Assembly: GCA_947561715.1 (NCBI GenBank)
Contig: OX387199.1
Location: 9,243,001-9,307,000 of the forward strand
From: Ascidia mentula
Lineage: Eukaryota > Chordata > Ascidiacea > Phlebobranchia > Ascidiidae
Length of the DNA: 64,000 nt
Direction: 5' to 3'
Of this stretch, positions 177 through 58,879 are shown piece after piece. How positions within the stretch are numbered: position 1 is the first letter of the stretch; each line of letters opens with the position of its first letter. The notes under the pieces were generated by a model. It did no database searches and was not told the origin of the DNA. It saw only the letters and a list, made by a program, of their open reading frames with translations. Both the position numbers and the translations under genes were made by a program.

Positions 177-190
177 TTTTTTTTTTCAAT
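177..190. repeat. Left copy of putative target-site duplication (T10-CAAT)
   Basis: Ten T followed by CAAT stands at the left edge of the Penelope-like composite. The same 14 bases recur at 17518-17531 at its right edge. The CAAT part is also the first sequence shared with the interior units, so the true duplicated length could be 10 to 14 bases. Low complexity makes chance identity possible. Confidence 0.5.
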
Positions 191-744
191 AATAATGTAT
201 TAAAATCCAAACACAGCGATCTTCAAACAGCTCAGATCGATTTATTTAGAGAAAAATATATTTCGCCTAAAACGGCATCATCAGTTTCTCCATTTACCAA
301 AACTGCCAAAAAGGAAAAACAGAAAGAAAAAAGTCAAGAATCTAACGCAAAAAGGTTACGCAAGCTAAAAATAAATAAAAATTAATAAAAACTATAAAAA
401 TATTCAGGTTTCAAGCATTAACTAAAAAATAATAAAAGTATGAATTAACTGCATGTGGTCAGACCTGTCTGTACTACTTTGCTTTCAAAAAACCACTGGC
501 GCTGACACCGAGTGAGCACACAAACATACAGAAGCAACTGAATGTAAAAACAGAACAAAAGTGGAAGGGACGTCACGAACTGCAGACAGGTAGGCCTGTG
601 GGCGAACAGGTGTGACCGATAAGACTCGGTGAATGATAAGACGATAAAAACAGGTTAACAACACAGGAAAAGTCATCAACCCGTTACAGCGAAAACAAGC
701 GCAAACAAAAACATAGTCCTACGGGCGGGGAATAGCAAAACAAA
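187..744 (-). repeat. PLE unit 1 non-coding region (pLTR/3' region), outer-truncated
   Basis: This is the same non-coding spacer that separates ORFs in the array, read on the minus strand. It is cut at its outer end and lacks about 80 bp present in internal spacers (compare 3597-3675). It also carries a private 6-bp deletion near 577, where internal copies read GGGGAATGGACG. It contains a hammerhead-like fold at 249-290. A plus-strand AT-rich open frame here is antisense and is not considered a gene. Confidence 0.85.
249..290 (-). ncRNA. Hammerhead-ribozyme-like motif, PLE unit 1
   Basis: On the minus strand the order is stem I strand GAGAAA, core CTGATGA, stem II GCC/GGC with a GTTTTA loop, core GAAA, a very short stem III, then TTTCTC closing stem I. 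This matches the minimal type I hammerheads reported in Penelope-like elements. A U next to the core is unpaired opposite C at the base of stem II, so activity cannot be taken for granted. Confidence 0.5.
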
Positions 745-3576
745 CTATTTGCATGATGGTGTTACCATGGTTTGCACATTTATTTGTGCCCGTATTCTGT
801 GCAACCATAAGTCCTCATATAGATCCAAACTCCCTGCAGGTGGTTTTTGCACGAACGTCACGTCATAGCAACTTGGCAATATGGGTCTTTGCTGGAATGT
901 CTCGCTATGCTTCTTCAGGTAGTGGTTACCCAGCGCCGTAGCATCGCTATCTAGCGAGCACTCGAAGTGGTACCAAGTAGACCTGTGAGCATTCCAGCGA
1001 GTGGAGAACTTGTTTTTCGTCTGCCCAACATACTGGGCTCCGCAGGTTTTGCACGAGGCCACATATATCCCATAGTCGCGACATGTTAGTCGCTGACGCA
1101 ACATTATTCTGCCTTTGGGGGTACACAGGAAGGTAGTTGTGGGCACCATGGGCTCGTGGTTACCATGGTGCCCGCACAGCGCACAGTGGCCGCAAGGGGC
1201 CGATTGGCCAGTGTCCCGAGGCTCGGTGTGATGGGCAAGCTGCTTGTAGTGGCATAGTTTGTTAAACATCGTTGGTCCTCTCCGATAAACGATGGAAGCA
1301 TTTGCCTGGAGGCTCAATTCCTTGGGCGAAAGACGCAGTATATGAGGGAATGCTGTTGCCCAGATAAGTTTGTGCAGGCTTGGAAGCGAGTCTACCGACT
1401 TGTTGTGGAAGAATCTAGACTTCCAAGCGCTGGCTGTTGCTAACACATCGCATGTCATCCTCACCGGGAAATTGGATTTCACAGCTTTATCTTTGAGCCA
1501 CAATAGGGCCTTTTTGTAGTCGCTTTCATTCTCGTTTAAGCGCCGCATCCGTATGGCTTCGGAAAACACAATTGATTTAAACACATGGATTGGGTGGTGG
1601 GAACGCCCATTAAGAAAACAACGGTCAAGTGCTGTGGGCTTAGTGTGATTGGTGGTTTTGAAGCCCGCCAGTGACATGGGGTCGATAATGTGGCACACAT
1701 CAAGAAATTCAACTCCAGTGCATGGCTTTGCCGTTGTGGCTTGGCGGAAAGTTAGTTCCAAGCCTGCGTTACGAAAGCATTCCACCAACTTCTGTTGTAT
1801 GACATTGGTTGTTTTAACCCCAAGCGACACCCATATAATGTCATCAATGAACCTCTTAAATATGTACGCCTTGTTTATTGCTGTGGCAGCTTTGCAAACA
1901 ATGAAGTGAACAGCAATGTTAGCCACCGATACTGAGTTATTGTCACCTGTGACAATGCCTTCTTTTTGGCAATAAAAAGAATCTGCATTCCTCAATATGG
2001 CGTTGTCAATGCAAAACATTGTCAATTCGATGATGGTGTTTCTTGCCTGCGCGGTGAATGTTGAGTGACCATTCAAAGCCGCCTTCAAAGCCTGGCGTAT
2101 AATGGATCTGGGAAGGTTGGGATATAATGATTTTACATCCCCTGCCACAATGCATAGTTCCTGGCGCCGCATTTTCTTGGAGAGGTGTTGCGCATTTTCC
2201 ATTTTCCACTTGTGGAGTTCTTCTAAATAATCTTTACTGTCCCGGCAATATTCATTTACGTTTGCCTTGCAATAGAGTACACTGATCGGCTGCAAAATGC
2301 TTTCCAGGAAAATCGTAGTTCGGGACGTCGTGGTGTTTCCAGATGCTTGCACCAGTCTCACTGGCATCTCTCCAATACTGCAATGCAGCAGCTCTTCAGG
2401 TGCGAGCTTGTGGGTTTTGAACAACGGATACGCATATCCGGGTTCGTTGCACGCAAAGAATTTTGCTGTAGGACCAGAGATATGTCGATAGGTGCAACCA
2501 TGGAGTTTGATGCCAGCCGTGTTATATAGGATGGTATCGCTTACGACTCCAAACTTGTGCAGCTTAATGAGCTTATCATCACAGGTGTCTTTAATCTTTT
2601 GCATCTCCGAACCTACTGTGGAACGCGTCAAGGGTAATTGGTGATACGCGGAGAATTGTTTTAACATTGTGGTGTTGTAGTCTTGTAAGTTCAGAATGAT
2701 GATTTTCCCATCCATGTCCGCCCTGCATATTACTATTTGTTTCTCCCTGGTCAATTTCGTTAATCTGTGCAAACTCTCTCTGAGATTTGAAGTCAGATTA
2801 TTCCGATTAACGAATAGGCGTCTGGCGGATGTCTCCATATTCCTGACTTTGGCAAAAACCATTTCTGTGTAGGCTAGAACTTCTGCGCTTAGTTCACTTT
2901 TGTTAGGCCTGTTAAGCTTCGGTATTTTAAGCTTTTCAGGGATCGGCTCTTTGATCTCGTCTTCTTCACCATAGAGACTCTGCCATTCTACACGGCGAAC
3001 ATGTCTAATGGCGTTAACCCATTCTGAATGTTGTGTTGTTTCATTCCACTGCGGCGTTGGCACAAAATTCAGGCCATACATTAAGAGAATTTTATCGTCT
3101 GAATTGAGAACGTAGTCTGATTTATTTAATATCATGTGTTCCGCTCGATCCAAAAGTTGTTCGTCCAAACGTTTTTGTGTTCGCAAATTGTACCGCATTT
3201 TGCTTTTCCTGTTCCTCGATGTCGAAGGCTTCAAAGTACTTCTGGGTGCGGTGCTATACCTCGTTACTTGTTTTGCCGCAAGCCAATTGTATCGTTCAAT
3301 GAATTTGGACGTAACCATTCGTTTGTATTTAAGTAGATAACATCGAGAGGCTTCAGGTAATGCCAACCAATTGTGAAGTAGATTGTTACACCGTTTATTA
3401 TGCAGACATAACTGTTTGTTAATCTTGCGTGATTGTTGGATCAAAAGTAGGTCCAAATCAATGCCTTTGCGGTAGTTAGAGGGAAGCAGCAGATGGCATC
3501 GCAAGCTTCGCCTTAAAAACTTAACCTTGGCTTCCATGTACACATCTTTTTGGTAGTTTTCAATTGCCGGGTCCAT
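745..3576 (-). CDS. Penelope-like element RT/GIY-YIG protein, copy 1 (intact)
   Basis: The intact 943-residue frame starts at a CACCATGG context and ends at TAG at the low-coordinate side. Layout by residue: a basic N-terminal region; a PLE-type DG(K)-containing segment near 290; RT motif A with DVKSLYPN (Asp480); motif B GIVTGDNNS (540-548); motif C FIDD (Asp578-Asp579); a Cys/His cluster CGHCALCGHHGNH (795-807); and the GIY-YIG nuclease with GIY at 836-838 and YVG at 849-851, with CKTC between them. It would perform target-primed reverse transcription with its own nick. A private change replaces Lys with Met in the ADKDGK segment found in the other copies. This Lys is conserved across all the other full copies, so this copy may be impaired. 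Confidence 0.93.
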   Translation of the reverse strand: MDPAIENYQKDVYMEAKVKFLRRSLRCHLLLPSNYRKGIDLDLLLIQQSRKINKQLCLHNKRCNNLLHNWLALPEASRCYLLKYKRMVTSKFIERYNWLAAKQVTRYSTAPRSTLKPSTSRNRKSKMRYNLRTQKRLDEQLLDRAEHMILNKSDYVLNSDDKILLMYGLNFVPTPQWNETTQHSEWVNAIRHVRRVEWQSLYGEEDEIKEPIPEKLKIPKLNRPNKSELSAEVLAYTEMVFAKVRNMETSARRLFVNRNNLTSNLRESLHRLTKLTREKQIVICRADMDGKIIILNLQDYNTTMLKQFSAYHQLPLTRSTVGSEMQKIKDTCDDKLIKLHKFGVVSDTILYNTAGIKLHGCTYRHISGPTAKFFACNEPGYAYPLFKTHKLAPEELLHCSIGEMPVRLVQASGNTTTSRTTIFLESILQPISVLYCKANVNEYCRDSKDYLEELHKWKMENAQHLSKKMRRQELCIVAGDVKSLYPNLPRSIIRQALKAALNGHSTFTAQARNTIIELTMFCIDNAILRNADSFYCQKEGIVTGDNNSVSVANIAVHFIVCKAATAINKAYIFKRFIDDIIWVSLGVKTTNVIQQKLVECFRNAGLELTFRQATTAKPCTGVEFLDVCHIIDPMSLAGFKTTNHTKPTALDRCFLNGRSHHPIHVFKSIVFSEAIRMRRLNENESDYKKALLWLKDKAVKSNFPVRMTCDVLATASAWKSRFFHNKSVDSLPSLHKLIWATAFPHILRLSPKELSLQANASIVYRRGPTMFNKLCHYKQLAHHTEPRDTGQSAPCGHCALCGHHGNHEPMVPTTTFLCTPKGRIMLRQRLTCRDYGIYVASCKTCGAQYVGQTKNKFSTRWNAHRSTWYHFECSLDSDATALGNHYLKKHSETFQQRPILPSCYDVTFVQKPPAGSLDLYEDLWLHRIRAQINVQTMVTPSCK

Positions 3577-4237
3577 GGTGATCCAGGCCGTATCTTTCCA
3601 ATGTGATTAGTAAATCAAATCTGGATCCAAAAAAACCAAAGGCCCCTGGCAGGCTGTCGATCGCACACCGTATCAATAATAATGTATTAAAATCCAAACA
3701 CAGCGATCTTCAAACAGCTCAGATCGATTTATTTAGAGAAAAATATATTTCGCCTAAAACGGCATCATCAGTTTCTCCATTTACCAAAACTGCCAAAAAG
3801 GAAAAACAGAAAGAAAAAAGTCAAGAATCTAACGCAAAAAGGTTACGCAAGCTAAAAATAAATAAAAATTAATAAAAACTATAAAAATATTCAGGTTTCA
3901 AGCATTAACTAAAAAATAATAAAAGTATGAATTAACTGCATGTGGTCAGACCTGTCTGTACTACTTTGCTTTCAAAAAACCACTGGCGCTGACACCGAGT
4001 GAGCACACAAACATACAGAAGCAACTGAATGTAAAAACAGAACAAAAGTGGAAGGGGAATGGACGTCACGAACTGCAGACAGGTAGGCCTGTGGGCGAAC
4101 AGGTGTGACCGATAAGACTCGGTGAATGATAAGACGATAAAAACAGGTTAACAACACAGGAAAAGTCATCAACCCGTTACAGCGAAAACAAGCGCAAACA
4201 AAAACATAGTCCTACGGGCGGGGAATAGCAAAACAAA
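3577..4237 (-). repeat. PLE inter-ORF non-coding region between copies 1 and 2
   Basis: This complete 661-bp spacer between two head-to-tail ORFs serves as the 3' region of copy 2 and the 5' region of copy 1 on the minus strand. It carries the hammerhead-like motif (3736-3777) and, close to the ATG, the short segment ending ATCACCATGG. Small antisense frames in it repeat identically in every unit, and they look like by-products of high copy identity. Confidence 0.85.
3736..3777 (-). ncRNA. Hammerhead-ribozyme-like motif, PLE spacer 1/2
   Basis: This is the same fold as at 249-290, on the minus strand in the sense of the RT ORF. It lies about 460 bp after the stop codon of copy 2 and about 160 bp before the start codon of copy 1. 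In a tandem transcript it would cut between units. Confidence 0.55.
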
Positions 4238-7069
4238 CTATTTGCATGATGGTGTTACCATGGTTTGCACATTTATTTGTGCCCGTATTCTGTGCAACCA
4301 TAAGTCCTCATATAGATCCAAACTCCCTGCAGGTGGTTTTTGCACGAACGTCACGTCATAGCAACTTGGCAATATGGGTCTTTGCTGGAATGTCTCGCTA
4401 TGCTTCTTCAGGTAGTGGTTACCCAGCGCCGTAGCATCGCTATCTAGCGAGCACTCGAAGTGGTACCAAGTAGACCTGTGAGCATTCCAGCGAGTGGAGA
4501 ACTTGTTTTTCGTCTGCCCAACATACTGGGCTCCGCAGGTTTTGCACGAGGCCACATATATCCCATAGTCGCGACATGTTAGTCGCTGACGCAACATTAT
4601 TCTGCCTTTGGGGGTACACAGGAAGGTAGTTGTGGGCACCATGGGCTCGTGGTTACCATGGTGCCCGCACAGCGCACAGTGGCCGCAAGGGGCCGATTGG
4701 CCAGTGTCCCGAGGCTCGGTGTGATGGGCAAGCTGCTTGTAGTGGCATAGTTTGTTAAACATCGTTGGTCCTCTCCGATAAACGATGGAAGCATTTGCCT
4801 GGAGGCTCAATTCCTTGGGCGAAAGACGCAGTATATGAGGCAATGCTGTTGCCCAGATAAGTTTGTGCAGGCTTGGAAGCGAGTCTACCGACTTGTTGTG
4901 GAAGAATCTAGACTTCCAAGCGCTGGCTGTTGCTAACACATCGCATGTCATCCTCACCGGGAAATTGGATTTCACAGCTTTATCTTTGAGCCACAATAGG
5001 GCCTTTTTGTAGTCGCTTTCATTCTCGTTTAAGCGCCGCATCCGTATGGCTTCGGAAAACACAATTGATTTAAACACATGGATTGGGTGGTGGGAACGCC
5101 CATTAAGAAAACAACGGTCAAGTGCTGTGGGCTTAGTGTGATTGGTGGTTTTGAAGCCCGCCAGTGACATGGGGTCGATAATGTGGCACACATCAAGAAA
5201 TTCAACTCCAGTGCATGGCTTTGCCGTTGTGGCTTGGCGGAAAGTTAGTTCCAAGCCTGCGTTACGAAAGCATTCCACCAACTTCTGTTGTATGACATTG
5301 GTTGTTTTAACCCCAAGCGACACCCATATAATGTCATCAATGAACCTCTTAAATATGTACGCCTTGTTTATTGCTGTGGCAGCTTTGCAAACAATGAAGT
5401 GAACAGCAATGTTAGCCACCGATACTGAGTTATTGTCACCTGTGACAATGCCTTCTTTTTGGCAATAAAAAGAATCTGCATTCCTCAATATGGCGTTGTC
5501 AATGCAAAACATTGTCAATTCGATGATGGTGTTTCTTGCCTGCGCGGTGAATGTTGAGTGACCATTCAAAGCCGCCTTCAAAGCCTGGCGTATAATGGAT
5601 CTGGGAAGGTTGGGATATAATGATTTTACATCCCCTGCCACAATGCATAGTTCCTGGCGCCGCATTTTCTTGGAGAGGTGTTGCGCATTTTCCATTTTCC
5701 ACTTGTGGAGTTCTTCTAAATAATCTTTACTGTCCCGGCAATATTCATTTACGTTTGCCTTGCAATAGAGTACACTGATCGGCTGCAAAATGCTTTCCAG
5801 GAAAATCGTAGTTCGGGACGTCGTGGTGTTTCCAGATGCTTGCACCAGTCTCACTGGCATCTCTCCAATACTGCAATGCAGCAGCTCTTCAGGTGCGAGC
5901 TTGTGGGTTTTGAACAACGGATACGCATATCCGGGTTCGTTGCACGCAAAGAATTTTGCTGTAGGACCAGAGATATGTCGATAGGTGCAACCATGGAGTT
6001 TGATGCCAGCCGTGTTATATAGGATGGTATCGCTTACGACTCCAAACTTGTGCAGCTTAATGAGCTTATCATCACAGGTGTCTTTAATCTTTTGCATCTC
6101 CGAACCTACTGTGGAACGCGTCAAGGGTAATTGGTGATACGCGGAGAATTGTTTTAACATTGTGGTGTTGTAGTCTTGTAAGTTCAGAATGATGATTTTC
6201 CCATCCTTGTCCGCCCTGCATATTACTATTTGTTTCTCCCTGGTCAATTTCGTTAATCTGTGCAAACTCTCTCTGAGATTTGAAGTCAGATTATTCCGAT
6301 TAACGAATAGGCGTCTGGCGGATGTCTCCATATTCCTGACTTTGGCAAAAACCATTTCTGTGTAGGCTAGAACTTCTGCGCTTAGTTCACTTTTGTTAGG
6401 CCTGTTAAGCTTCGGTATTTTAAGCTTTTCAGGGATCGGCTCTTTGATCTCGTCTTCTTCACCATAGAGACTCTGCCATTCTACACGGCGAACATGTCTA
6501 ATGGCGTTAACCCATTCTGAATGTTGTGTTGTTTCATTCCACTGCGGCGTTGGCACAAAATTCAGGCCATACATTAAGAGAATTTTATCGTCTGAATTGA
6601 GAACGTAGTCTGATTTATTTAATATCATGTGTTCCGCTCGATCCAAAAGTTGTTCGTCCAAACGTTTTTGTGTTCGCAAATTGTACCGCATTTTGCTTTT
6701 CCTGTTCCTCGATGTCGAAGGCTTCAAAGTACTTCTGGGTGCGGTGCTATACCTCGTTACTTGTTTTGCCGCAAGCCAATTGTATCGTTCAATGAATTTG
6801 GACGTAACCATTCGTTTGTATTTAAGTAGATAACATCGAGAGGCTTCAGGTAATGCCAACCAATTGTGAAGTAGATTGTTACACCGTTTATTATGCAGAC
6901 ATAACTGTTTGTTAATCTTGCGTGATTGTTGGATCAAAAGTAGGTCCAAATCAATGCCTTTGCGGTAGTTAGAGGGAAGCAGCAGATGGCATCGCAAGCT
7001 TCGCCTTAAAAACTTAACCTTGGCTTCCATGTACACATCTTTTTGGTAGTTTTCAATTGCCGGGTCCAT
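4238..7069 (-). CDS. Penelope-like element RT/GIY-YIG protein, copy 2 (intact)
   Basis: The second full 943-residue frame has the same domain order as copy 1: RT motifs DVKSLYPN, GIVTGDNNS and FIDD, then the Cys/His cluster and GIY-YIG nuclease. It keeps the ADKDGK lysine. Its visible private change is Leu for Phe in WATALPH, from a G-to-C at about 4841. No stop or frameshift was seen. It lies head-to-tail with copies 1 and 3 at the constant 3,493-bp period. Confidence 0.93.
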   Translation of the reverse strand: MDPAIENYQKDVYMEAKVKFLRRSLRCHLLLPSNYRKGIDLDLLLIQQSRKINKQLCLHNKRCNNLLHNWLALPEASRCYLLKYKRMVTSKFIERYNWLAAKQVTRYSTAPRSTLKPSTSRNRKSKMRYNLRTQKRLDEQLLDRAEHMILNKSDYVLNSDDKILLMYGLNFVPTPQWNETTQHSEWVNAIRHVRRVEWQSLYGEEDEIKEPIPEKLKIPKLNRPNKSELSAEVLAYTEMVFAKVRNMETSARRLFVNRNNLTSNLRESLHRLTKLTREKQIVICRADKDGKIIILNLQDYNTTMLKQFSAYHQLPLTRSTVGSEMQKIKDTCDDKLIKLHKFGVVSDTILYNTAGIKLHGCTYRHISGPTAKFFACNEPGYAYPLFKTHKLAPEELLHCSIGEMPVRLVQASGNTTTSRTTIFLESILQPISVLYCKANVNEYCRDSKDYLEELHKWKMENAQHLSKKMRRQELCIVAGDVKSLYPNLPRSIIRQALKAALNGHSTFTAQARNTIIELTMFCIDNAILRNADSFYCQKEGIVTGDNNSVSVANIAVHFIVCKAATAINKAYIFKRFIDDIIWVSLGVKTTNVIQQKLVECFRNAGLELTFRQATTAKPCTGVEFLDVCHIIDPMSLAGFKTTNHTKPTALDRCFLNGRSHHPIHVFKSIVFSEAIRMRRLNENESDYKKALLWLKDKAVKSNFPVRMTCDVLATASAWKSRFFHNKSVDSLPSLHKLIWATALPHILRLSPKELSLQANASIVYRRGPTMFNKLCHYKQLAHHTEPRDTGQSAPCGHCALCGHHGNHEPMVPTTTFLCTPKGRIMLRQRLTCRDYGIYVASCKTCGAQYVGQTKNKFSTRWNAHRSTWYHFECSLDSDATALGNHYLKKHSETFQQRPILPSCYDVTFVQKPPAGSLDLYEDLWLHRIRAQINVQTMVTPSCK

Positions 7070-7730
7070 GGTGATCCAGGCCGTATCTTTCCAATGTGAT
7101 TAGTAAATCAAATCTGGATCCAAAAAAACCAAAGGCCCCTGGCAGGCTGTCGATCGCACACCGTATCAATAATAATGTATTAAAATCCAAACACAGCGAT
7201 CTTCAAACAGCTCAGATCGATTTATTTAGAGAAAAATATATTTCGCCTAAAACGGCATCATCAGTTTCTCCATTTACCAAAACTGCCAAAAAGGAAAAAC
7301 AGAAAGAAAAAAGTCAAGAATCTAACGCAAAAAGGTTACGCAAGCTAAAAATAAATAAAAATTAATAAAAACTATAAAAATATTCAGGTTTCAAGCATTA
7401 ACTAAAAAATAATAAAAGTATGAATTAACTGCATGTGGTCAGACCTGTCTGTACTACTTTGCTTTCAAAAAACCACTGGCGCTGACACCGAGTGAGCACA
7501 CAAACATACAGAAGCAACTGAATGTAAAAACAGAACAAAAGTGGAAGGGGAATGGACGTCACGAACTGCAGACAGGTAGGCCTGTGGGCGAACAGGTGTG
7601 ACCGATAAAACTCGGTGAATGATAAGACGATAAAAACAGGTTAACAACACAGGAAAAGTCATCAACCCGTTACAGCGAAAACAAGCGCAAACAAAAACAT
7701 AGTCCTACGGGCGGGGAATAGCAAAACAAA
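7070..7730 (-). repeat. PLE inter-ORF non-coding region between copies 2 and 3
   Basis: A complete 661-bp spacer, nearly identical to 3577-4237. It has a private A (GATAAAACTCGG) at about 7609 where the others read GATAAGACTCGG. It contains the hammerhead-like motif at 7229-7270. Confidence 0.85.
7229..7270 (-). ncRNA. Hammerhead-ribozyme-like motif, PLE spacer 2/3
   Basis: Same CTGATGA / GAAA core and GAGAAA-TTTCTC stem I as the other units, minus strand, sense to copies 2 and 3. Confidence 0.55.
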
Positions 7731-8826
7731 CTATTTGCATGATGGTGTTACCATGGTTTGCACATTTATTTGTGCCCGTATTCTGTGCAACCATAAGTCC
7801 TCATATAGATCCAAACTCCCTGCAGGTGGTTTTTGCACGAACGTCACGTCATAGCAACTTGGCAATATGGGTCTTTGCTGGAATGTCTCGCTATGCTTCT
7901 TCAGGTAGTGGTTACCCAGCGCCGTAGCATCGCTATCTAGCGAGCACTCGAAGTGGTACCAAGTAGACCTGTGAGCATTCCAGCGAGTGGAGAACTTGTT
8001 TTTCGTCTGCCCAACATACTGGGCTCCGCAGGTTTTGCACGAGGCCACATATATCCCATAGTCGCGACATGTTAGTCGCTGACGCAACATTATTCTGCCT
8101 TTGGGGGTACACAGGAAGGTAGTTGTGGGCACCATGGGCTCGTGGTTACCATGGTGCCCGCACAGCGCACAGTGGCCGCAAGGGGCCGATTGGCCAGTGT
8201 CCCGAGGCTCGGTGTGATGGGCAAGCTGCTTGTAGTGGCATAGTTTGTTAAACATCGTTGGTCCTCTCCGATAAACGATGGAAGCATTTGCCTGGAGGCT
8301 CAATTCCTTGGGCGAAAGACGCAGTATATGAGGGAATGCTGTTGCCCAGATAAGTTTGTGCAGGCTTGGAAGCGAGTCTACCGACTTGTTGTGGAAGAAT
8401 CTAGACTTCCAAGCGCTGGCTGTTGCTAACACATCGCATGTCATCCTCACCGGGAAATTGGATTTCACAGCTTTATCTTTGAGCCACAATAGGGCCTTTT
8501 TGTAGTCGCTTTCATTCTCGTTTAAGCGCCGCATCCGTATGGCTTCGGAAAACACAATTGATTTAAACACATGGATTGGGTGGTGGGAACGCCCATTAAG
8601 AAAACAACGGTCAAGTGCTGTGGGCTTTGTGTGATTGGTGGTTTTGAAGCCCGCCAGTGACATGGGGTCGATAATGTGGCACACATCAAGAAATTCAACT
8701 CCAGTGCATGGCTTTGCCGTTGTGGCTTGGCGGAAAGTTAGTTCCAAGCCTGCGTTACGAAAGCATTCCACCAACTTCTGTTGTATGACATTGGTTGTTT
8801 TAACCCCAAGCGACACCCATATAATG
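7731..8826 (-). pseudogene. Penelope-like element copy 3, 5'-truncated at the palindrome centre
   Basis: This is the C-terminal 365 or so codons of the 943-residue protein. It begins just after the catalytic motif C region (the ATAATG of the ATTGATGACATTATATGGG segment) and runs through the Cys/His cluster and the whole GIY-YIG nuclease to the normal stop. The RT domain is lost, so this copy alone cannot reverse transcribe. It has a private substitution near 8627 (GGCTTTGTGTG for GGCTTAGTGTG). The truncation point is the junction with the inverted copy 4. Confidence 0.92.
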
Positions 8827-8891
8827 AACAACCAATGTCATACAACAGAAGTTGGTGGAATGCTTTCGTAACGCAGGCTTGGAACTAACTT
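8760..8891. other. Centre of the PLE palindrome (5'-to-5' junction)
   Basis: The left copy ends with CCCATATAATG at 8826. From 8827 the right copy starts with AACAACCAATG, the reverse complement of bases about 27 nt inside the left copy. The arms are therefore perfect inverted repeats around a spacer of about 27 nt made of left-copy sequence only. No filler and at most one base of microhomology is visible at the join. Arms of more than 8 kb this close together could extrude or be unstable. Confidence 0.88.
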
Positions 8892-9895
8892 TCCGCCAAG
8901 CCACAACGGCAAAGCCATGCACTGGAGTTGAATTTCTTGATGTGTGCCACATTATCGACCCCATGTCACTGGCGGGCTTCAAAACCACCAATCACACTAA
9001 GCCCACAGCACTTGACCGTTGTTTTCTTAATGGGCGTTCCCACCACCCAATCCATGTGTTTAAATCAATTGTGTTTTCCGAAGCCATACGGATGCGGCGC
9101 TTAAACGAGAATGAAAGCGACTACAAAAAGGCCCTATTGTGGCTCAAAGATAAAGCTGTGAAATCCAATTTCCCGGTGAGGATGACATGCGATGTGTTAG
9201 CAACAGCCAGCGCTTGGAAGTCTAGATTCTTCCACAACAAGTCGGTAGACTCGCTTCCAAGCCTGCACAAACTTATCTGGGCAACAGCATTCCCTCATAT
9301 ACTGCGTCTTTCGCCCAAGGAATTGAGCCTCCAGGCAAATGCTTCCATCGTTTATCGGAGAGGACCAACGATGTTTAACAAACTATGCCACTACAAGCAG
9401 CTTGCCCATCACACCGAGCCTCGGGACACTGGCCAATCGGCCCCTTGCGGCCACTGTGCGCTGTGCGGGCACCATGGTAACCACGAGCCCATGGTGCCCA
9501 CAACTACCTTCCTGTGTACCCCCAAAGGCAGAATAATGTTGCGTCAGCGACTAACATGTCGCGACTATGGGATATATGTGGCCTCGTGCAAAACCTGCGG
9601 AGCCCAGTATGTTGGGCAGACGAAAAACAAGTTCTCCACTCGCTGGAATGCTCACAGGTCTACTTGGTACCACTTCGAGTGCTCGCTAGATAGCGATGCT
9701 ACGGCGCTGGGTAACCACTACCTGAAGAAGCATAGCGAGACATTCCAGCAAAGACCCATATTGCCAAGTTGCTATGACGTGACGTTCGTGCAAAAACCAC
9801 CTGCAGGGAGTTTGGATCTATATGAGGACTTATGGTTGCACAGAATACGGGCACAAATAAATGTGCAAACCATGGTAACACCATCATGCAAATAG
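8827..9895 (+). pseudogene. Penelope-like element copy 4, 5'-truncated at the palindrome centre
   Basis: This is the plus-strand partner of copy 3. It starts about 27 nt further into the element, so the RT catalytic aspartates are missing. It keeps the RT thumb-like part, the Cys/His cluster and the GIY-YIG nuclease through the normal TAG at 9893-9895. It lacks the private substitution carried by copy 3. A short open frame can start from an in-frame alternative codon at about 8852, but no initiation signal is evident. Confidence 0.92.
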
Positions 9896-10556
9896 TTTGT
9901 TTTGCTATTCCCCGCCCGTAGGACTATGTTTTTGTTTGCGCTTGTTTTCGCTGTAACGGGTTGATGACTTTTCCTGTGTTGTTAACCTGTTTTTATCGTC
10001 TTATCATTCACCGAGTCTTATCGGTCACACCTGTTCGCCCACAGGCCTACCTGTCTGCAGTTCGTGACGTCCATTCCCCTTCCACTTTTGTTCTGTTTTT
10101 ACATTCAGTTGCTTCTGTATGTTTGTGTGCTCACTCGGTGTCAGCGCCAGTGGTTTTTTGAAAGCAAAGTAGTACAGACAGGTCTGACCACATGCAGTTA
10201 ATTCATACTTTTATTATTTTTTAGTTAATGCTTGAAACCTGAATATTTTTATAGTTTTTATTAATTTTTATTTATTTTTAGCTTGCGTAACCTTTTTGCG
10301 TTAGATTCTTGACTTTTTTCTTTCTGTTTTTCCTTTTTGGCAGTTTTGGTAAATGGAGAAACTGATGATGCCGTTTTAGGCGAAATATATTTTTCTCTAA
10401 ATAAATCGATCTGAGCTGTTTGAAGATCGCTGTGTTTGGATTTTAATACATTATTATTGATACGGTGTGCGATCGACAGCCTGCCAGGGGCCTTTGGTTT
10501 TTTTGGATCCAGATTTGATTTACTAATCACATTGGAAAGATACGGCCTGGATCACC
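9896..10556 (+). repeat. PLE inter-ORF non-coding region between copies 4 and 5
   Basis: A complete 661-bp spacer in plus orientation. It follows the stop of copy 4 and leads into ATCACCATGG of copy 5. It contains the hammerhead-like motif at 10356-10397 and A/T-rich stretches. Confidence 0.85.
10356..10397 (+). ncRNA. Hammerhead-ribozyme-like motif, PLE spacer 4/5
   Basis: Plus strand: GAGAAA 10356-10361, CTGATGA 10362-10368, then U, stem II GCC (10370-10372), loop GTTTTA, GGC (10379-10381), GAAA 10382-10385, a short TATA-like stem III region, and TTTCTC 10392-10397 closing stem I. The predicted cleavage site would lie in the T-rich stretch just before TTTCTC. The very short stem III is typical of PLE hammerheads, which are thought to work best as dimers. 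Confidence 0.55.
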
Positions 10557-13388
10557 ATGGACCCGGCAATTGAAAACTACCAAAAAGATGTGTACATGGA
10601 AGCCAAGGTTAAGTTTTTAAGGCGAAGCTTGCGATGCCATCTGCTGCTTCCCTCTAACTACCGCAAAGGCATTGATTTGGACCTACTTTTGATCCAACAA
10701 TCACGCAAGATTAACAAACAGTTATGTCTGCATAATAAACGGTGTAACAATCTACTTCACAATTGGTTGGCATTACCTGAAGCCTCTCGATGTTATCTAC
10801 TTAAATACAAACGAATGGTTACGTCCAAATTCATTGAACGATACAATTGGCTTGCGGCAAAACAAGTAACGAGGTATAGCACCGCACCCAGAAGTACTTT
10901 GAAGCCTTCGACATCGAGGAACAGGAAAAGCAAAATGCGGTACAATTTGCGAACACAAAAACGTTTGGACGAACAACTTTTGGATCGAGCGGAACACATG
11001 ATATTAAATAAATCAGACTACGTTCTCAATTCAGACGATAAAATTCTCTTAATGTATGGCCTGAATTTTGTGCCAACGCCGCAGTGGAATGAAACAACAC
11101 AACATTCAGAATGGGTTAACGCCATTAGACATGTTCGCCGTGTAGAATGGCAGAGTCTCTATGGTGAAGAAGACGAGATCAAAGAGCCGATCCCTGAAAA
11201 GCTTAAAATACCGAAGCTTAACAGGCCTAACAAAAGTGAACTAAGCGCAGAAGTTCTAGCCTACACAGAAATGGTTTTTGCCAAAGTCAGGAATATGGAG
11301 ACATCCGCCAGACGCCTATTCGTTAATCGGAATAATCTGACTTCAAATCTCAGAGAGAGTTTGCACAGATTAACGAAATTGACCAGGGAGAAACAAATAG
11401 TAATATGCAGGGCGGACAAGGATGGGAAAATCATCATTCTGAACTTACAAGACTACAACACCACAATGTTAAAACAATTCTCCGCGTATCACCAATTACC
11501 CTTGACGCGTTCCACAGTAGGTTCGGAGATGCAAAAGATTAAAGACACCTGTGATGATAAGCTCATTAAGCTGCACAAGTTTGGAGTCGTAAGCGATACC
11601 ATCCTATATAACACGGCTGGCATCAAACTCCATGGTTGCACCTATCGACATATCTCTGGTCCTACAGCAAAATTCTTTGCGTGCAACGAACCCGGATATG
11701 CGTATCCGTTGTTCAAAACCCACAAGCTCGCACCTGAAGAGCTGCTGCATTGCAGTATTGGAGAGATGCCAGTGAGACTGGTGCAAGCATCTGGAAACAC
11801 CACGACGTCCCGAACTACGATTTTCCTGGAAAGCATTTTGCAGCCGATCAGTGTACTCTATTGCAAGGCAAACGTAAATGAATATTGCCGGGACAGTAAA
11901 GATTATTTAGAAGAACTCCACAAGTGGAAAATGGAAAATGCGCAACACCTCTCCAAGAAAATGCGGCGCCAGGAACTATGCATTGTGGCAGGGGATGTAA
12001 AATCATTATATCCCAACCTTCCCAGATCCATTGTACGCCAGGCTTTGAAGGCGGCTTTGAATGGTCACTCAACATTCACCGCGCAGGCAAGAAACACCAT
12101 CATCGAATTGACAATGTTTTGCATTGACAACGCCATATTGAGGAATGCAGATTCTTTTTATTGCCAAAAAGAAGGCATTGTCACAGGTGACAATAACTCA
12201 GTATCGGTGGCTAACATTGCTGTTCACTTCATTGTTTGCAAAGCTGCCACAGCAATAAACAAGGCGTACATATTTAAGAGGTTCATTGATGACATTATAT
12301 GGGTGTCGCTTGGGGTTAAAACAACCAATGTCATACAACAGAAGTTGGTGGAATGCTTTCGTAACGCAGGCTTGGAACTAACTTTCCGCCAAGCCACAAC
12401 GGCAAAGCCATGCACTGGAGTTGAATTTCTTGATGTGTGCCACATTATCGACCCCATGTCACTGGCGGGCTTCAAAACCACCAATCACACTAAGCCCACA
12501 GCACTTGACCGTTGTTTTCTTAATGGGCGTTCCCACCACCCAATCCATGTGTTTAAATCAATTGTGTTTTCCGAAGCCATACGGATGCGGCGCTTAAACG
12601 AGAATGAAAGCGACTACAAAAAGGCCCTATTGTGGCTCAAAGATAAAGCTGTGAAATCCAATTTCCCGGTGAGGATGACATGCGATGTGTTAGCAACAGC
12701 CAGCGCTTGGAAGTCTAGATTCTTCCACAACAAGTCGGTAGACTCGCTTCCAAGCCTGCACAAACTTATCTGGGCAACAGCATTCCCTCATATACTGCGT
12801 CTTTCGCCCAAGGAATTGAGCCTCCAGGCAAATGCTTCCATCGTTTATCGGAGAGGACCAACGATGTTTAACAAACTATGCCACTACAAGCAGCTTGCCC
12901 ATCACACCGAGCCTCGGGACACTGGCCAATCGGCCCCTTGCGGCCACTGTGCGCTGTGTGGGCACCATGGTAACCACGAGCCCATGGTGCCCACAACTAC
13001 CTTCCTGTGTACCCCCAAAGGCAGAATAATGTTGCGTCAGCGACTAACATGTCGCGACTATGGGATATATGTGGCCTCGTGCAAAACCTGCGGAGCCCAG
13101 TATGTTGGGCAGACGAAAAACAAGTTCTCCACTCGCTGGAATGCTCACAGGTCTACTTGGTACCACTTCGAGTGCTCGCTAGATAGCGATGCTACGGCGC
13201 TGGGTAACCACTACCTGAAGAAGCATAGCGAGACATTCCAGCAAAGACCCATATTGCCAAGTTGCTATGACGTGACGTTCGTGCAAAAACCACCTGCAGG
13301 GAGTTTGGATCTATATGAGGACTTATGGTTGCACAGAATACGGGCACAAATAAATGTGCAAACCATGGTAACACCATCATGCAAATAG
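10557..13388 (+). CDS. Penelope-like element RT/GIY-YIG protein, copy 5 (intact)
   Basis: Intact 943-residue plus-strand frame, used here as the reference copy. Motif A Asp480 is at 11994. FIDD aspartates 578-579 are at 12288-12293. The cysteine/histidine cluster 795-807 is at 12939-12977. GIY 836-838 is at 13062-13070 and YVG 849-851 at 13101-13109. The protein should combine RT and endonuclease for target-primed retrotransposition in the nucleus. Private changes include Val for Ile in PRSIVRQAL (12031 region) and a synonymous C-to-T near 12959. There is no intron, frameshift or stop. Confidence 0.94.
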   Translation: MDPAIENYQKDVYMEAKVKFLRRSLRCHLLLPSNYRKGIDLDLLLIQQSRKINKQLCLHNKRCNNLLHNWLALPEASRCYLLKYKRMVTSKFIERYNWLAAKQVTRYSTAPRSTLKPSTSRNRKSKMRYNLRTQKRLDEQLLDRAEHMILNKSDYVLNSDDKILLMYGLNFVPTPQWNETTQHSEWVNAIRHVRRVEWQSLYGEEDEIKEPIPEKLKIPKLNRPNKSELSAEVLAYTEMVFAKVRNMETSARRLFVNRNNLTSNLRESLHRLTKLTREKQIVICRADKDGKIIILNLQDYNTTMLKQFSAYHQLPLTRSTVGSEMQKIKDTCDDKLIKLHKFGVVSDTILYNTAGIKLHGCTYRHISGPTAKFFACNEPGYAYPLFKTHKLAPEELLHCSIGEMPVRLVQASGNTTTSRTTIFLESILQPISVLYCKANVNEYCRDSKDYLEELHKWKMENAQHLSKKMRRQELCIVAGDVKSLYPNLPRSIVRQALKAALNGHSTFTAQARNTIIELTMFCIDNAILRNADSFYCQKEGIVTGDNNSVSVANIAVHFIVCKAATAINKAYIFKRFIDDIIWVSLGVKTTNVIQQKLVECFRNAGLELTFRQATTAKPCTGVEFLDVCHIIDPMSLAGFKTTNHTKPTALDRCFLNGRSHHPIHVFKSIVFSEAIRMRRLNENESDYKKALLWLKDKAVKSNFPVRMTCDVLATASAWKSRFFHNKSVDSLPSLHKLIWATAFPHILRLSPKELSLQANASIVYRRGPTMFNKLCHYKQLAHHTEPRDTGQSAPCGHCALCGHHGNHEPMVPTTTFLCTPKGRIMLRQRLTCRDYGIYVASCKTCGAQYVGQTKNKFSTRWNAHRSTWYHFECSLDSDATALGNHYLKKHSETFQQRPILPSCYDVTFVQKPPAGSLDLYEDLWLHRIRAQINVQTMVTPSCK

Positions 13389-14049
13389 TTTGTTTTGCTA
13401 TTCCCCGCCCGTAGGACTATGTTTTTGTTTGCGCTTGTTTTCGCTGTAACGGGTTGATGACTTTTCCTGTGTTGTTAACCTGTTTTTATCGTCTTATCAT
13501 TCACCGAGTCTTATCGGTCACACCTGTTCGCCCACAGGCCTACCTGTCTGCAGTTCGTGACGTCCATTCCCCTTCCACTTTTGTTCTGTTTTTACATTCA
13601 GTTGCTTCTGTATGTTTGTGTGCTCACTCGGTGTCAGCGCCAGTGGTTTTTTGAAAGCAAAGTAGTACAGACAGGTCTGACCACATGCAGTTAATTCATA
13701 CTTTTATTATTTTTTAGTTAATGCTTGAAACCTGAATATTTTTATAGTTTTTATTAATTTTTATTTATTTTTAGCTTGCGTAACCTTTTTGCGTTAGATT
13801 CTTGACTTTTTTCTTTCTGTTTTTCCTTTTTGGCAGTTTTGGTAAATGGAGAAACTGATGATGCCGTTTTAGGCGAAATATATTTTTCTCTAAATAAATC
13901 GATCTGAGCTGTTTGAAGATCGCTGTGTTTGGATTTTAATACATTATTATTGATACGGTGTGCGATCGACAGCCTGCCAGGGGCCTTTGGTTTTTTTGGA
14001 TCCAGATTTGATTTACTAATCACATTGGAAAGATACGGCCTGGATCACC
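13389..14049 (+). repeat. PLE inter-ORF non-coding region between copies 5 and 6
   Basis: Complete 661-bp spacer, same structure as 9896-10556, with the hammerhead-like motif at 13849-13890. Confidence 0.85.
13849..13890 (+). ncRNA. Hammerhead-ribozyme-like motif, PLE spacer 5/6
   Basis: Identical to 10356-10397, offset by one 3,493-bp unit. Confidence 0.55.
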
Positions 14050-16881
14050 ATGGACCCGGCAATTGAAAACTACCAAAAAGATGTGTACATGGAAGCCAAG
14101 GTTAAGTTTTTAAGGCGAAGCTTGCGATGCCATCTGCTGCTTCCCTCTAACTACCGCAAAGGCATTGATTTGGACCTACTTTTGATCCAACAATCACGCA
14201 AGATTAACAAACAGTTATGTCTGCATAATAAACGGTGTAACAATCTACTTCACAATTGGTTGGCATTACCTGAAGCCTCTCGATGTTATCTACTTAAATA
14301 CAAACGAATGGTTACGTCCAAATTCATTGAACGATACAATTGGCTTGCGGCAAAACAAGTAACGAGGTATAGCACCGCACCCAGAAGTACTTTGAAGCCT
14401 TCGACATCGAGGAACAGGAAAAGCAAAATGCGGTACAATTTGCGAACACAAAAACGTTTGGACGAACAACTTTTGGATCGAGCGGAACACATGATATTAA
14501 ATAAATCAGACTACGTTCTCAATTCAGACGATAAAATTCTCTTAATGTATGGCCTGAATTTTGTGCCAACGCCGCAGTGGAATGAAACAACACAACATTC
14601 AGAATGGGTTAACGCCATTAGACATGTTCGCCGTGTAGAATGGCAGAGTCTCTATGGTGAAGAAGACGAGATCAAAGAGCCGATCCCTGAAAAGCTTAAA
14701 ATACCGAAGCTTAACAGGCCTAACAAAAGTGAACTAAGCGCAGAAGTTCTAGCCTACACAGAAATGGTTTTTGCCAAAGTCAGGAATATGGAGACATCCG
14801 CCAGACGCCTATTCGTTAATCGGAATAATCTGACTTCAAATCTCAGAGAGAGTTTGCACAGATTAACGAAATTGACCAGGGAGAAACAAATAGTAATATG
14901 CAGGGCGGACAAGGATGGGAAAATCATCATTCTGAACTTACAAGACTACAACACCACAATGTTAAAACAATTCTCCGCGTATCACCAATTACCCTTGACG
15001 CGTTCCACAGTAGGTTCGGAGATGCAAAAGATTAAAGACACCTGTGATGATAAGCTCATTAAGCTGCACAAGTTTGAAGTCGTAAGCGATACCATCCTAT
15101 ATAACACGGCTGGCATCAAACTCCATGGTTGCACCTATCGACATATCTCTGGTCCTACAGCAAAATTCTTTGCGTGCAACGAACCCGGATATGCGTATCC
15201 GTTGTTCAAAACCCACAAGCTCGCACCTGAAGAGCTGCTGCATTGCAGTATTGGAGAGATGCCAGTGAGACTGGTGCAAGCATCTGGAAACACCACGACG
15301 TCCCGAACTACGATTTTCCTGGAAAGCATTTTGCAGCCGATCAGTGTACTCTATTGCAAGGCAAACGTAAATGAATATTGCCGGGACAGTAAAGATTATT
15401 TAGAAGAACTCCACAAGTGGAAAATGGAAAATGCGCAACACCTCTCCAAGAAAATGCGGCGCCAGGAACTATGCATTGTGGCAGGGGATGTAAAATCATT
15501 ATATCCCAACCTTCCCAGATCCATTATACGCCAGGCTTTGAAGGCGGCTTTGAATGGTCACTCAACATTCACCGCGCAGGCAAGAAACACCATCATCGAA
15601 TTGACAATGTTTTGCATTGACAACGCCATATTGAGGAATGCAGATTCTTTTTATTGCCAAAAAGAAGGCATTGTCACAGGTGACAATAACTCAGTATCGG
15701 TGGCTAACATTGCTGTTCACTTCATTGTTTGCAAAGCTGCCACAGCAATAAACAAGGCGTACATATTTAAGAGGTTCATTGATGACATTATATGGGTGTC
15801 GCTTGGGGTTAAAACAACCAATGTCATACAACAGAAGTTGGTGGAATGCTTTCGTAACGCAGGCTTGGAACTAACTTTCCGCCAAGCCACAACGGCAAAG
15901 CCATGCACTGGAGTTGAATTTCTTGATGTGTGCCACATTATCGACCCCATGTCACTGGCGGGCTTCAAAACCACCAATCACACTAAGCCCACAGCACTTG
16001 ACCGTTGTTTTCTTAATGGGCGTTCCCACCACCCAATCCATGTGTTTAAATCAATTGTGTTTTCCGAAGCCATACGGATGCGGCGCTTAAACGAGAATGA
16101 AAGCGACTACAAAAAGGCCCTATTGTGGCTCAAAGATAAAGCTGTGAAATCCAATTTCCCGGTGAGGATGACATGCGATGTGTTAGCAACAGCCAGCGCT
16201 TGGAAGTCTAGATTCTTCCACAACAAGTCGGTAGACTCGCTTCCAAGCCTGCACAAACTTATCTGGGCAACAGCATTCCCTCATATACTGCGTCTTTCGC
16301 CCAAGGAATTGAGCCTCCAGGCAAATGCTTCCATCGTTTATCGGAGAGGACCAACGATGTTTAACAAACTATGCCACTACAAGCAGCTTGCCCATCACAC
16401 CGAGCCTCGGGACACTGGCCAATCGGCCCCTTGCGGCCACTGTGCGCTGTGCGGGCACCATGGTAACCACGAGCCCATGGTGCCCACAACTACCTTCCTG
16501 TGTACCCCCAAAGGCAGAATAATGTTGCGTCAGCGACTAACATGTCGCGACTATGGGATATATGTGGCCTCGTGCAAAACCTGCGGAGCCCAGTATGTTG
16601 GGCAGACGAAAAACAAGTTCTCCACTCGCTGGAATGCTCACAGGTCTACTTGGTACCACTTCGAGTGCTCGCTAGATAGCGATGCTACGGCGCTGGGTAA
16701 CCACTACCTGAAGAAGCATAGCGAGACATTCCAGCAAAGACCCATATTGCCAAGTTGCTATGACGTGACGTTCGTGCAAAAACCACCTGCAGGGAGTTTG
16801 GATCTATATGAGGACTTATGGTTGCACAGAATACGGGCACAAATAAATGTGCAAACCATGGTAACACCATCATGCAAATAG
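14050..16881 (+). CDS. Penelope-like element RT/GIY-YIG protein, copy 6 (intact)
   Basis: Fourth intact 943-residue frame, with all RT and GIY-YIG motifs as in copy 5. The private change seen is Glu for Gly in KFEVVSD (G-to-A near 15077). It is the outermost right unit, so its 3' region ends at the right insertion edge and can be compared with the cut outer end of unit 1 to infer how the array integrated. Confidence 0.94.
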   Translation: MDPAIENYQKDVYMEAKVKFLRRSLRCHLLLPSNYRKGIDLDLLLIQQSRKINKQLCLHNKRCNNLLHNWLALPEASRCYLLKYKRMVTSKFIERYNWLAAKQVTRYSTAPRSTLKPSTSRNRKSKMRYNLRTQKRLDEQLLDRAEHMILNKSDYVLNSDDKILLMYGLNFVPTPQWNETTQHSEWVNAIRHVRRVEWQSLYGEEDEIKEPIPEKLKIPKLNRPNKSELSAEVLAYTEMVFAKVRNMETSARRLFVNRNNLTSNLRESLHRLTKLTREKQIVICRADKDGKIIILNLQDYNTTMLKQFSAYHQLPLTRSTVGSEMQKIKDTCDDKLIKLHKFEVVSDTILYNTAGIKLHGCTYRHISGPTAKFFACNEPGYAYPLFKTHKLAPEELLHCSIGEMPVRLVQASGNTTTSRTTIFLESILQPISVLYCKANVNEYCRDSKDYLEELHKWKMENAQHLSKKMRRQELCIVAGDVKSLYPNLPRSIIRQALKAALNGHSTFTAQARNTIIELTMFCIDNAILRNADSFYCQKEGIVTGDNNSVSVANIAVHFIVCKAATAINKAYIFKRFIDDIIWVSLGVKTTNVIQQKLVECFRNAGLELTFRQATTAKPCTGVEFLDVCHIIDPMSLAGFKTTNHTKPTALDRCFLNGRSHHPIHVFKSIVFSEAIRMRRLNENESDYKKALLWLKDKAVKSNFPVRMTCDVLATASAWKSRFFHNKSVDSLPSLHKLIWATAFPHILRLSPKELSLQANASIVYRRGPTMFNKLCHYKQLAHHTEPRDTGQSAPCGHCALCGHHGNHEPMVPTTTFLCTPKGRIMLRQRLTCRDYGIYVASCKTCGAQYVGQTKNKFSTRWNAHRSTWYHFECSLDSDATALGNHYLKKHSETFQQRPILPSCYDVTFVQKPPAGSLDLYEDLWLHRIRAQINVQTMVTPSCK

Positions 16882-17517
16882 TTTGTTTTGCTATTCCCCG
16901 CCCGTAGGACTATGTTTTTGTTTGCGCTTGTTTTCGCTGTAACGGGTTGATGACTTTTCCTGTGTTGTTAACCTGTTTTTATCGTCTTATCATTCACCGA
17001 GTCTTATCGGTCACACCTGTTCGCCCACAGGCCTACCTGTCTGCAGTTCGTGACGTCCATTCCCCTTCCACTTTTGTTCTGTTTTTACATTCAGTTGCTT
17101 CTGTATGTTTGTGTGCTCACTCGGTGTCAGCGCCAGTGGTTTTTTGAAAGCAAAGTAGTACAGACAGGTCTGACCACATGCAGTTAATTCATACTTTTAT
17201 TATTTTTTAGTTAATGCTTGAAACCTGAATATTTTTATAGTTTTTATTAATTTTTATTTATTTTTAGCTTGCGTAACCTTTTTGCGTTAGATTCTTGACT
17301 TTTTTCTTTCTGTTTTTCCTTTTTGGCAGTTTTGGCAAATGGAGAAACTGATGATGCCGTTTTAGGCGAAATATATTTTTCTCTAAATAAATCGATCTGA
17401 GCTGTTTGAAGATCGCTGTGTTTGGATTTTAATACATTATTATTGATACGGTGTGCGATCGACAGCCTGCCAGGGGCCTTTGGTTTTTTTGGATCCAGAT
17501 TTGATTTACTAATCACA
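16882..17517 (+). repeat. PLE unit 6 3' non-coding region up to the right insertion edge
   Basis: The spacer sequence continues unchanged to AATCACA(TT) at 17511-17519 and then breaks into a T-run and host sequence. The last 24 bases before the next ATG of internal spacers (GGAAAGATACGG...) are absent, so this marks the element's natural or truncated 3' end. A private C (TTTTGGCAAATGG) is seen near 17335. Confidence 0.85.
17342..17383 (+). ncRNA. Hammerhead-ribozyme-like motif, PLE 3' region of unit 6
   Basis: Same fold as at 10356-10397, in the terminal unit, about 135 bp from the right edge of the insertion. Confidence 0.55.
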
Positions 17518-17531
17518 TTTTTTTTTTCAAT
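17518..17531. repeat. Right copy of putative target-site duplication (T10-CAAT)
   Basis: Ten T then CAAT follows the right end of the composite, matching 177-190. If real, the pre-insertion site read ...TTTATTTG, T10, CAAT, TGACAATTTTC... in a lipoxygenase intron. Confidence 0.5.
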
Positions 17532-20876: not shown

Positions 20877-20928
20877 CATACCTCCAACTTTATTGCACGC
20901 ATTTTTGAAAGTTATGATTCTTGTTTAT

Positions 20929-21172
20929 CAGTTGCATTTTGTGTGTGGAAATAGTAGACCTATATGCAGAATTCCATTTTGCTTGGGCGTAATTTTTAAT
21001 ATACCCTAATAAGTATTTCGTTGATTTGTCTGTTTAAAAACTTCACTTTTCAGTTGCATTTTGTGTGTGGAAATAGTAGACCTATATGCAGAATTCCATT
21101 TTGCTTGGGCGTAATTTTTAATATACCCTAATATGTATTTCGTTGATTTGTCTGATTAAAAACTTCACTTTT
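20929..21172. repeat. Tandem duplication of about 122 bp downstream of lipoxygenase
   Basis: Two adjacent copies (20929-21050 and 21051-21172) start CAGTTGCATTTTGTGTGTGG and differ at only two or three positions (AAGTATTT/ATGTATTT, TCTGTTTA/TCTGATTA). They fall just after the lipoxygenase stop, probably in or near its 3' UTR. Confidence 0.85.
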
Positions 21173-21174
21173 CA

Positions 21175-38990: not shown

Positions 38991-39118
38991 ATGAAAGTTT
39001 CAACTATTTATTGAAAGCAAGTTTCAACTATTTATTGAAAGCAAGTTTCAACTGTTTGTTGAAAGCAAGTTTCAACTGTTTGTTGAAAGCAAGTTTCAAC
39101 TGTTTGTGAAAGCAAGTT
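38991..39118 (+). repeat. 24-bp minisatellite in BEL leader
   Basis: About five tandem copies of a 24-base unit of the type AAGTTTCAACTATTTATTGAAAGC. The first two carry ATTTATT and the later ones GTTTGTT. The last copy is shortened (TTTGTGAAAG). The array ends about 45 bp before the gag start codon. Confidence 0.9.
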
Positions 39119-39161
39119 TGACTATTTGGTAAAGGCAATCTTGCCAAGTTCGCCTTTCAAT

Positions 39162-58875: not shown

Positions 58876-58879
58876 GAAG

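Follow-up and report, generated by a model that had tools for sequence, protein, structure and literature searches.

Among the closest described systems to the element considered here are two sets of Penelope-like elements (PLEs). The Poseidon element PAc of Anolis carolinensis cuts and extends both strands in vitro and uses two internal start sites, the interval between which forms its tail (Frangieh et al. 2024, PMC11167929). Penelope elements of Adineta vaga carry inverted pseudo-long terminal repeats (pLTRs), one of which optionally bears a tail (Arkhipova et al. 2013, PMC3846280). Here we analyse a PLE family of the ascidian Ascidia mentula, starting from a 17.3-kb palindrome in a 64,000-nucleotide (nt) stretch (C52:9243001–9307000; the window) of a 196-Mb, 79-contig genome. 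The family resembles PAc in its single open reading frame (ORF) with reverse transcriptase (RT) and C-terminal GIY-YIG domains, its tandem units, its hammerhead (putative here) and its AT-rich targets. It differs from PAc, as described in the part of that report considered here, in that its start sites lie before the ATG rather than inside the ORF (where PAc has an AC-rich stem loop 111–118 into the ORF), in its tail of 74 nt rather than 30–40 bp and in its spliced-leader ends, no spliced leader being mentioned there. Moreover, the PAc start sites show no apparent strand difference, whereas here each two-armed insertion carries one of each. With the A. vaga elements the family shares an inverted pLTR beside a direct copy, target-site duplications (TSDs), 5′-truncated partial tandems and a tendency to long tandem or inverted repeats; however, the TSDs there are 8–10 bp (absent from some copies) rather than 12–17 bp, copy numbers are very low, and the part of that report considered here gives no end-pairing count, spliced-leader ends or fully assembled multi-unit palindrome with open ORFs (PMC3846280).

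Numbering within the 3,493-bp unit starts at the first base past site A (u1), which places the ORF at u98–u2929. Insertions of the family have two recurrent outer ends, site A at about u3487–u3493 and site B at about u71–u82, which are about 74 nt apart and just ahead of the ORF. We sorted 90 loci, comprising the window and 89 loci (L009–L088 and L092–L100) fetched after DNA and pattern searches, into 51 that are two-armed, 16 that are one-armed with a TSD and 23 that are unclassifiable. Every one of the 51 two-armed loci has one tail-less A end and one tailed B end, with no A+A and no B+B locus among them, and the A end is the left one at 26 loci and the right one at the other 25. Under independent end choice, such pairing has a probability of at most 0.5^51. 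The result holds in all 48 strictly classified loci (0.5^48), a set without L045, whose outer end at u3472 is beyond the threshold for A, and without L062 and L084, whose second arms of 8–9 nt were read by eye; a lone weak match (84%) lying past the B end was removed by hand at each of L016 and L049. The two-armed loci are head-to-head with their 3′ ends outward, including L062 and L084 with their minimal second arms. Nine loci were fetched after the A/B prediction had been written; five proved to be two-armed and 5/5 conform, the test being only partly blind because the tail matches of L093 and L100 (2/9) had already been seen. The 90 loci are a part of the family, taken from 40 scored candidates out of several hundred and from the first-listed of 246 site-A matches, and the count leaves aside L001–L008, which overlap other loci, and L089–L091, which are leader genes. 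The unclassifiable loci are L014, L015, L017, L019, L023, L024, L028, L032, L033, L035, L036, L038, L040, L051, L055, L065, L070, L072, L081, L085, L087, L093 and L098. L098 consists of parts of two adjacent insertions; L070 is a segmental duplicate of L069, and L024 of L023. These last two pairs each share a PLE insertion within an apparent segmental duplication, about 93 kb apart on C69 for L069/L070, and inverted and about 0.31 Mb apart on C1 for L023/L024. Sister insertions only about 300 bp long show the same palindrome as the window, and the 50 other two-armed loci, whose arms vary in length, are spread over nine contigs.

TSDs of 12–17 bp, with a mode of 13, flank 47 of the 49 two-armed loci with computed ends, compared with duplications of at least 12 bp in 2/2,352 mismatched left–right flank pairs. 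With L062 (13 bp) and L084 (15 bp), 49/51 two-armed loci carry a TSD; no TSD that reaches 10 bp flanks L016 or L094. Bases near the TSDs show weak preferences, for A at −2 (27/47) and T at −6 (29/47) on the A side, and for T at +1 (25/47) on the B side.

The palindrome in the window is real and is itself ordinary for the family; it is the A/B pairing rule that constitutes the finding of interest. The window was judged from the assembled sequence, by self-alignment and by mapping onto one unit. Self-alignment gave a single inverted repeat, 99.7% identical, that spans 186–17446, with direct repeats spaced 3,493 bp, and the palindrome is the longest among the loci seen (the next, L010, is 9.2 kb). 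Its parts are as follows.

187–8826, reverse strand: A arm, outer end 187 tail-less; units 187–3673, 3674–7166 (full) and 7167–8826 (truncated, reaching u1834)
187–3673, reverse strand: A-arm unit of 3,487 bp, carrying a 6-nt deletion
3674–7166, reverse strand: A-arm unit of 3,493 bp, full
7167–8826, reverse strand: A-arm unit of 1,660 bp, 5′-truncated
8800–8826, no strand: asymmetric centre of 27 nt, A-arm u1860–u1834, with a blunt join at 8826/8827
8827–17519, forward strand: B arm, with a truncated unit 8827–10459, full units 10460–13952 and 13953–17445, and the tail 17446–17519
8827–10459, forward strand: B-arm unit of 1,633 bp, 5′-truncated, beginning at u1861
17446–17519, forward strand: tail of 74 nt, u1–u74, the interval that separates start sites A and B, present only at the B-arm outer end
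177–190, no strand: left copy of the TSD, TTTTTTTTTTCAAT, 14 bp, its CAAT overlapping the element end
17518–17531, no strand: right copy of the TSD, TTTTTTTTTTCAAT, 14 bp
745–3576, reverse strand: open ORF of 943 residues, RT and C-terminal GIY-YIG
4238–7069, reverse strand: open ORF of 943 residues
10557–13388, forward strand: open ORF of 943 residues (P0001), RT and C-terminal GIY-YIG
14050–16881, forward strand: open ORF of 943 residues

The arms meet 5′-to-5′ at 8826/8827, the left reaching u1834 and the right u1861, so that they are offset by 27 nt. The original prediction, a six-unit Penelope-like array of three 3,493-bp units per strand, was thus accurate as to the opposed units, their meeting point and the 27-nt asymmetric centre, and needs amending in that only two units of an arm are full and the third is truncated. 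The four intact ORFs that it listed are indeed four open 943-residue frames, and the right end, which it had placed at 17517, moves to 17519 by unit mapping. Its Penelope-like assignment is supported by the RT and C-terminal GIY-YIG domains and the tandem units. As in canonical (EN+, where EN is the endonuclease domain) PLEs, a single ORF combines an RT core with a C-terminal GIY-YIG domain, units are tandem or partial-tandem with pLTRs, and one tailed end and an inverted copy occur with a TSD. In the 943-residue ORF, an RVT_1 match at 468–608 scored 27.7 bits, under the Pfam curated cut-off of 29.6, and a GIY-YIG match at 835–866 scored 19.4 bits, under the cut-off of 22.6. Residues D480, D578–D579, Y838, Y849, R860, E921 and N933, which we take to be catalytic, are invariant across P0001 and five relatives. 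A protein search returned at least 27 matches among the 8,000 candidates that were scored, the best among those listed being from the ascidian Phallusia mammillata at 46% identity, and a search of solved structures returned one chance-level match (E 0.26). Cysteines C795 and C798 are located before the EN domain; a cysteine-rich stretch between RT and EN is a criterion for the Neptune clade. Other PLE families in this genome gave matches at 70–91% identity.

Among the six units of the window there are nine differences, eight substitutions and the 6-nt deletion, each private to one unit; they fall in five of the six units, with none in the central right-hand unit. The concern that one arm might be an assembly mirror of the other is hardly credible. 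Both arms carry private differences, including the deletion in one unit, the arms are offset by 27 nt and have a one-sided tail, the host flanks are unlike and bear a TSD, and the same pattern recurs at the 50 other loci, many of them only about 300 bp. A single tandem insertion that was later inverted and duplicated, by fold-back or replication error, or else the integration of an extrachromosomal circle, would account for arms that are 99.7% identical around a short spacer. Nevertheless, we regard both as very improbable. The outer ends are A/B-asymmetric in 51/51 loci with TSDs at the outermost edges, and the inverted repeat in the window halts at the element edges, 186 and 17446, without extending into host flank. 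Circle integration is not known to leave fixed element ends or an element-type TSD; the sister insertions share two fixed outer ends, A and B, with TSDs in 49/51 and variable arm 5′ stops, so that the circle put forward by the original prediction is not supported. Its other suggestion, a multi-unit insertion in one event, gains support from the TSD that brackets the block. The 14-bp TSD of the window is T-rich and weak taken alone, yet the window is one of the 47/49 two-armed loci with computed ends that have TSDs of 12–17 bp. Because TSDs bracket the two-armed loci, the 17-kb block most likely came in as a single insertion event.

We propose, with a probability of roughly three in four, that the palindrome is one insertion made by two-ended target-primed reverse transcription of a PLE. 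The element endonuclease would cut both strands of AT-rich DNA with a stagger of 12–17 nt, as the TSDs suggest, and both 3′ ends would prime on element RNA, each at its own start site, A or B, the two lying 74 nt apart. The complementary DNAs (cDNAs) would both extend towards the RNA 5′ end. On spliced-leader RNA they would run for about 190 nt and halt at the leader or close to it, in keeping with the leader ends observed, and on tandem read-through RNA they would traverse whole units. The cDNA 3′ ends would then be end-joined, bluntly, through 1–5 shared nt or with short filler, to give the head-to-head palindrome whose joins are seen. Two-ended priming as such we consider very likely. Although the outer ends are directly visible in the 51 two-armed insertions, that A and B would be priming sites draws also on the in vitro work of Frangieh et al. 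2024. Template jumping, which had been suggested, is not needed, given that two cDNAs, one per side of the break, can account for the palindrome.

The 44 tabulated joins between arms comprise 9 that are blunt, 10 that share 1–5 nt, 17 with filler of 1–27 nt and 8 with leader sequence. By eye, the fillers of L059, L060 and L064 look like nearby sequence; filler copied from nearby sequence is a trait of polymerase-theta-type end joining. L1 twin priming is similar in that two DNA ends prime on element RNA to give an inverted structure. However, the arms of L1 twin priming come from non-overlapping RNA segments, whereas here the arms cover the same segment (an overlap of 8.6 kb in the window) and the outer ends are fixed start sites.

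The sequences of the two arms indicate that those of one insertion share subfamily variants and derive from the same source. At 29 sites in 34 loci with overlapping arms, mismatches between arms of one locus numbered 11/395 informative cells, compared with 2,330/9,158 across loci. Without the old locus L016 the values were 8/371 and 1,761/8,339, and none of 2,000 permutations was as low. The nearest arm was the locus’s own partner, alone or jointly, in 25/32 loci, with ties in 28; short arms hold few informative sites. Three signs favour a single RNA: the strict A/B pairing, B arms that stop where the A cDNA begins, and near-coincident arm ends. B arms end within u3478–u1, the start of the A cDNA, in 8/51 two-armed loci, where 1.5 would be expected from neighbouring positions (13 in 146 nt; Poisson p 0.0002), and in 0/25 one-armed B insertions, of which 13 carry a TSD and 12 lack one, all three counts having been made by hand. 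Arm 5′ ends lie at most 40 nt apart in 4/20 long-arm loci, compared with 0.55 expected (p 0.0007). Near-coincident ends are 27 nt apart in the window after 8.6 kb, 11 nt at L012 after 2.9 kb, 35 nt at L029 and 0 nt at L044. In the 38 two-armed loci with typed lengths (the other 13, mostly leader-ended, were left out), the A arm exceeds the B arm by more than 40 nt in 22, and the reverse holds in 4. A strict leader–follower order, with A always ahead, was rejected on the basis of those 4/38 loci.

Taken together, these data tip the balance modestly towards both arms having come from the same RNA molecule. Two separate RNAs, one per DNA end, held in a protein dimer whose subunits must use different start sites, seem unlikely to us. 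Such a dimer fits a published element that cleaves and extends both strands and has been modelled as a dimer, in the part of the report considered here (PMC11167929), but needs extra assumptions for stops at site A in two-armed insertions only and for near-coincident arm ends. The fuller model, in which one ribonucleoprotein works on one RNA, stands in our view about even. The adjacent start sites would serve one break end each, as a division of labour and not as slack, and full-length spread would depend on tandem RNA escaping trans-splicing, leader-capped monomers yielding only dead ends of about 190 nt.

Several observations weigh against single-RNA, two-ended priming or against parts of it. 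The 23/90 unsorted loci could conceal exceptions to the A/B rule. That 16 one-armed insertions carry a TSD means that priming from both ends is not required. A common source gene would explain the shared variants just as well as a single RNA molecule, and in 7/32 loci an arm of another locus is nearer than the own partner. The interval u3478–u1 was picked post hoc, after the data had been seen, 8/51 and 0/25 differ modestly (one-sided Fisher p 0.034), and another four B arms (L053, L062, L094 and L099) stop within the tail. The coincidence at L044 is that of a short-arm locus, 194 nt. The coincidence argument is weakened further because arm ends have hotspots, at u498 (L015, L017), u2974 (L018, L031) and u1819–1861 (the window twice, L011, L023), which are possibly RT pauses or RNA breaks. 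With regard to a single RNA, arms are often very unequal, for example 618 and 6,481 nt at L009, a point that also speaks for two RNAs, and a two-RNA dimer model could be devised that obeys the same A/B pairing.

Many short members of the family end in the host spliced leader, which indicates that the template was a trans-spliced RNA. The 16-nt spliced leader of Ciona intestinalis is ATTCTATTTGAATAAG, according to the part of the source considered here (PMC7986045). This sequence followed by GT has 1,830 copies in the A. mentula genome, some of which form a tandem array with a 719/720-bp period, compared with 0 for the reversed control, and the host therefore probably has Ciona-type trans-splicing, going by the genome sequence. 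The array, which among the matches listed occupies C1:15.24–15.32 Mb (to 15315846), presumably consists of spliced-leader RNA genes; a search for Ciona-type leader RNA, in which the Sm motif AGCTTTGG follows the leader, gave no match in the genome. Junctions between leader and element, searched as the last ten leader bases plus element at up to one mismatch, number 62 in the genome, only some of them in fetched loci, with 0 for the reversed control. Many short insertions have an arm that ends at the leader, joined to the acceptor CAG^TTTTGG (u3377/3378); several one-armed copies carry the leader at their inner end, and at the centre of L047 leader meets leader. A G precedes the leader in L040, L042 and L095, and a C in L066; the G could come from non-templated addition at the cap, for which the evidence is thin. 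Spliced-leader relics in dinoflagellate retrogenes, in the part of that work considered here, are alike in that a reverse-transcribed leader marks a trans-spliced template, but differ in that here the template is the RNA of the retrotransposon itself and the leader is at the inner, not the outer, ends of two-armed insertions. The features that bear on the template are as follows.

17310–17329, forward strand: probable 3′ splice site used in leader trans-splicing, a pyrimidine-rich tract plus CAG, cut after u3377; leader joined there in other copies
13817–13836 and 10324–10343, plus the left arm: further copies of the 3′ splice site, as repeats
17342–17383, forward strand: putative minimal hammerhead-ribozyme-like motif, with stem I GAGAAA/TTTCTC and core CTGATGA...GAAA; in every unit

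Because both start sites are upstream of the ATG, a leader-capped monomer gives only about 190 nt plus leader, so ORF-bearing copies need an RNA that spans at least one pLTR–ORF–pLTR. For the window we infer a tandem RNA at least 2.5 units long, and consider this template probably linear. Rolling reverse transcription of a circular monomer RNA made by the hammerhead is a doubtful source of the tandem units. It would fit the private differences of the window, none of which is shared in register between the arms, the variable sites of L009 (1), L010 (0) and L011 (7), each limited to one copy, and the putative motif in every unit. However, a young homogeneous source array would look alike, and two arms that end 27 nt from each other over a length of 8.6 kb suggest a common RNA 5′ end, something that a circle does not have. 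The hammerhead-like region folds as a stem–loop (−12.9 kcal/mol, z −2.2), and we take CTGATGA...GAAA to be a hammerhead core. No Rfam hammerhead model matched, either at the gathering threshold or under relaxed scanning, so that the putative motif is a reading of the sequence together with one fold; folding of the tail region gave nothing notable (z −1.05 and +1.13). The hammerheads of PLEs are minimal type I ribozymes that lack helix III, according to the part of the source considered here (PMC7761336), and the anole study, in its part considered here, detected no reads starting or ending at the ribozyme cut site (PMC11167929).

Elsewhere in the window, a GC-rich RT element occupies 57300–60200 (the 4-kb bin at 56001 has a GC content of 0.58), with an RVT_1 ORF at 57362–58876 and an ORF at 58912–60117 with a weak zf-RVT match. 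It has 23 genome matches including its own, of which 22 are on the same contig and 17 within C52:9.30–9.69 Mb, a regional confinement. ORFs at 39126–41648 with DUF1759 and RVT_1 resemble a retrotransposon that we take to be of BEL/Pao type. The window also contains a 122-bp sequence in two copies (20928–21174), a 24-bp unit repeated 5.6 times (38995–39127) and an inverted 266-bp pair at 93% identity (45585–45848 and 48972–49236).

Titles and abstract openings contained no report of obligate A/B pairing or of spliced-leader ends in PLEs, and priority is accordingly not firm. The in vivo record described here extends the published biochemistry (Frangieh et al. 2024) and anatomy (Arkhipova et al. 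2013) of PLEs, the addition to the former being finished two-armed insertions that carry one of each start site. The genome constitutes a large natural record of one-A–one-B pairing, of a shared arm source, of stops at the partner start site and of template 5′ ends marked by a leader. This record makes a single-RNA, two-ended model directly testable, and such a model would account for the tail as well as for the inverted copies. The record may also be of use to studies of two-sided, RNA-templated DNA insertion, and the family sheds light on how a poorly understood class of elements moves.

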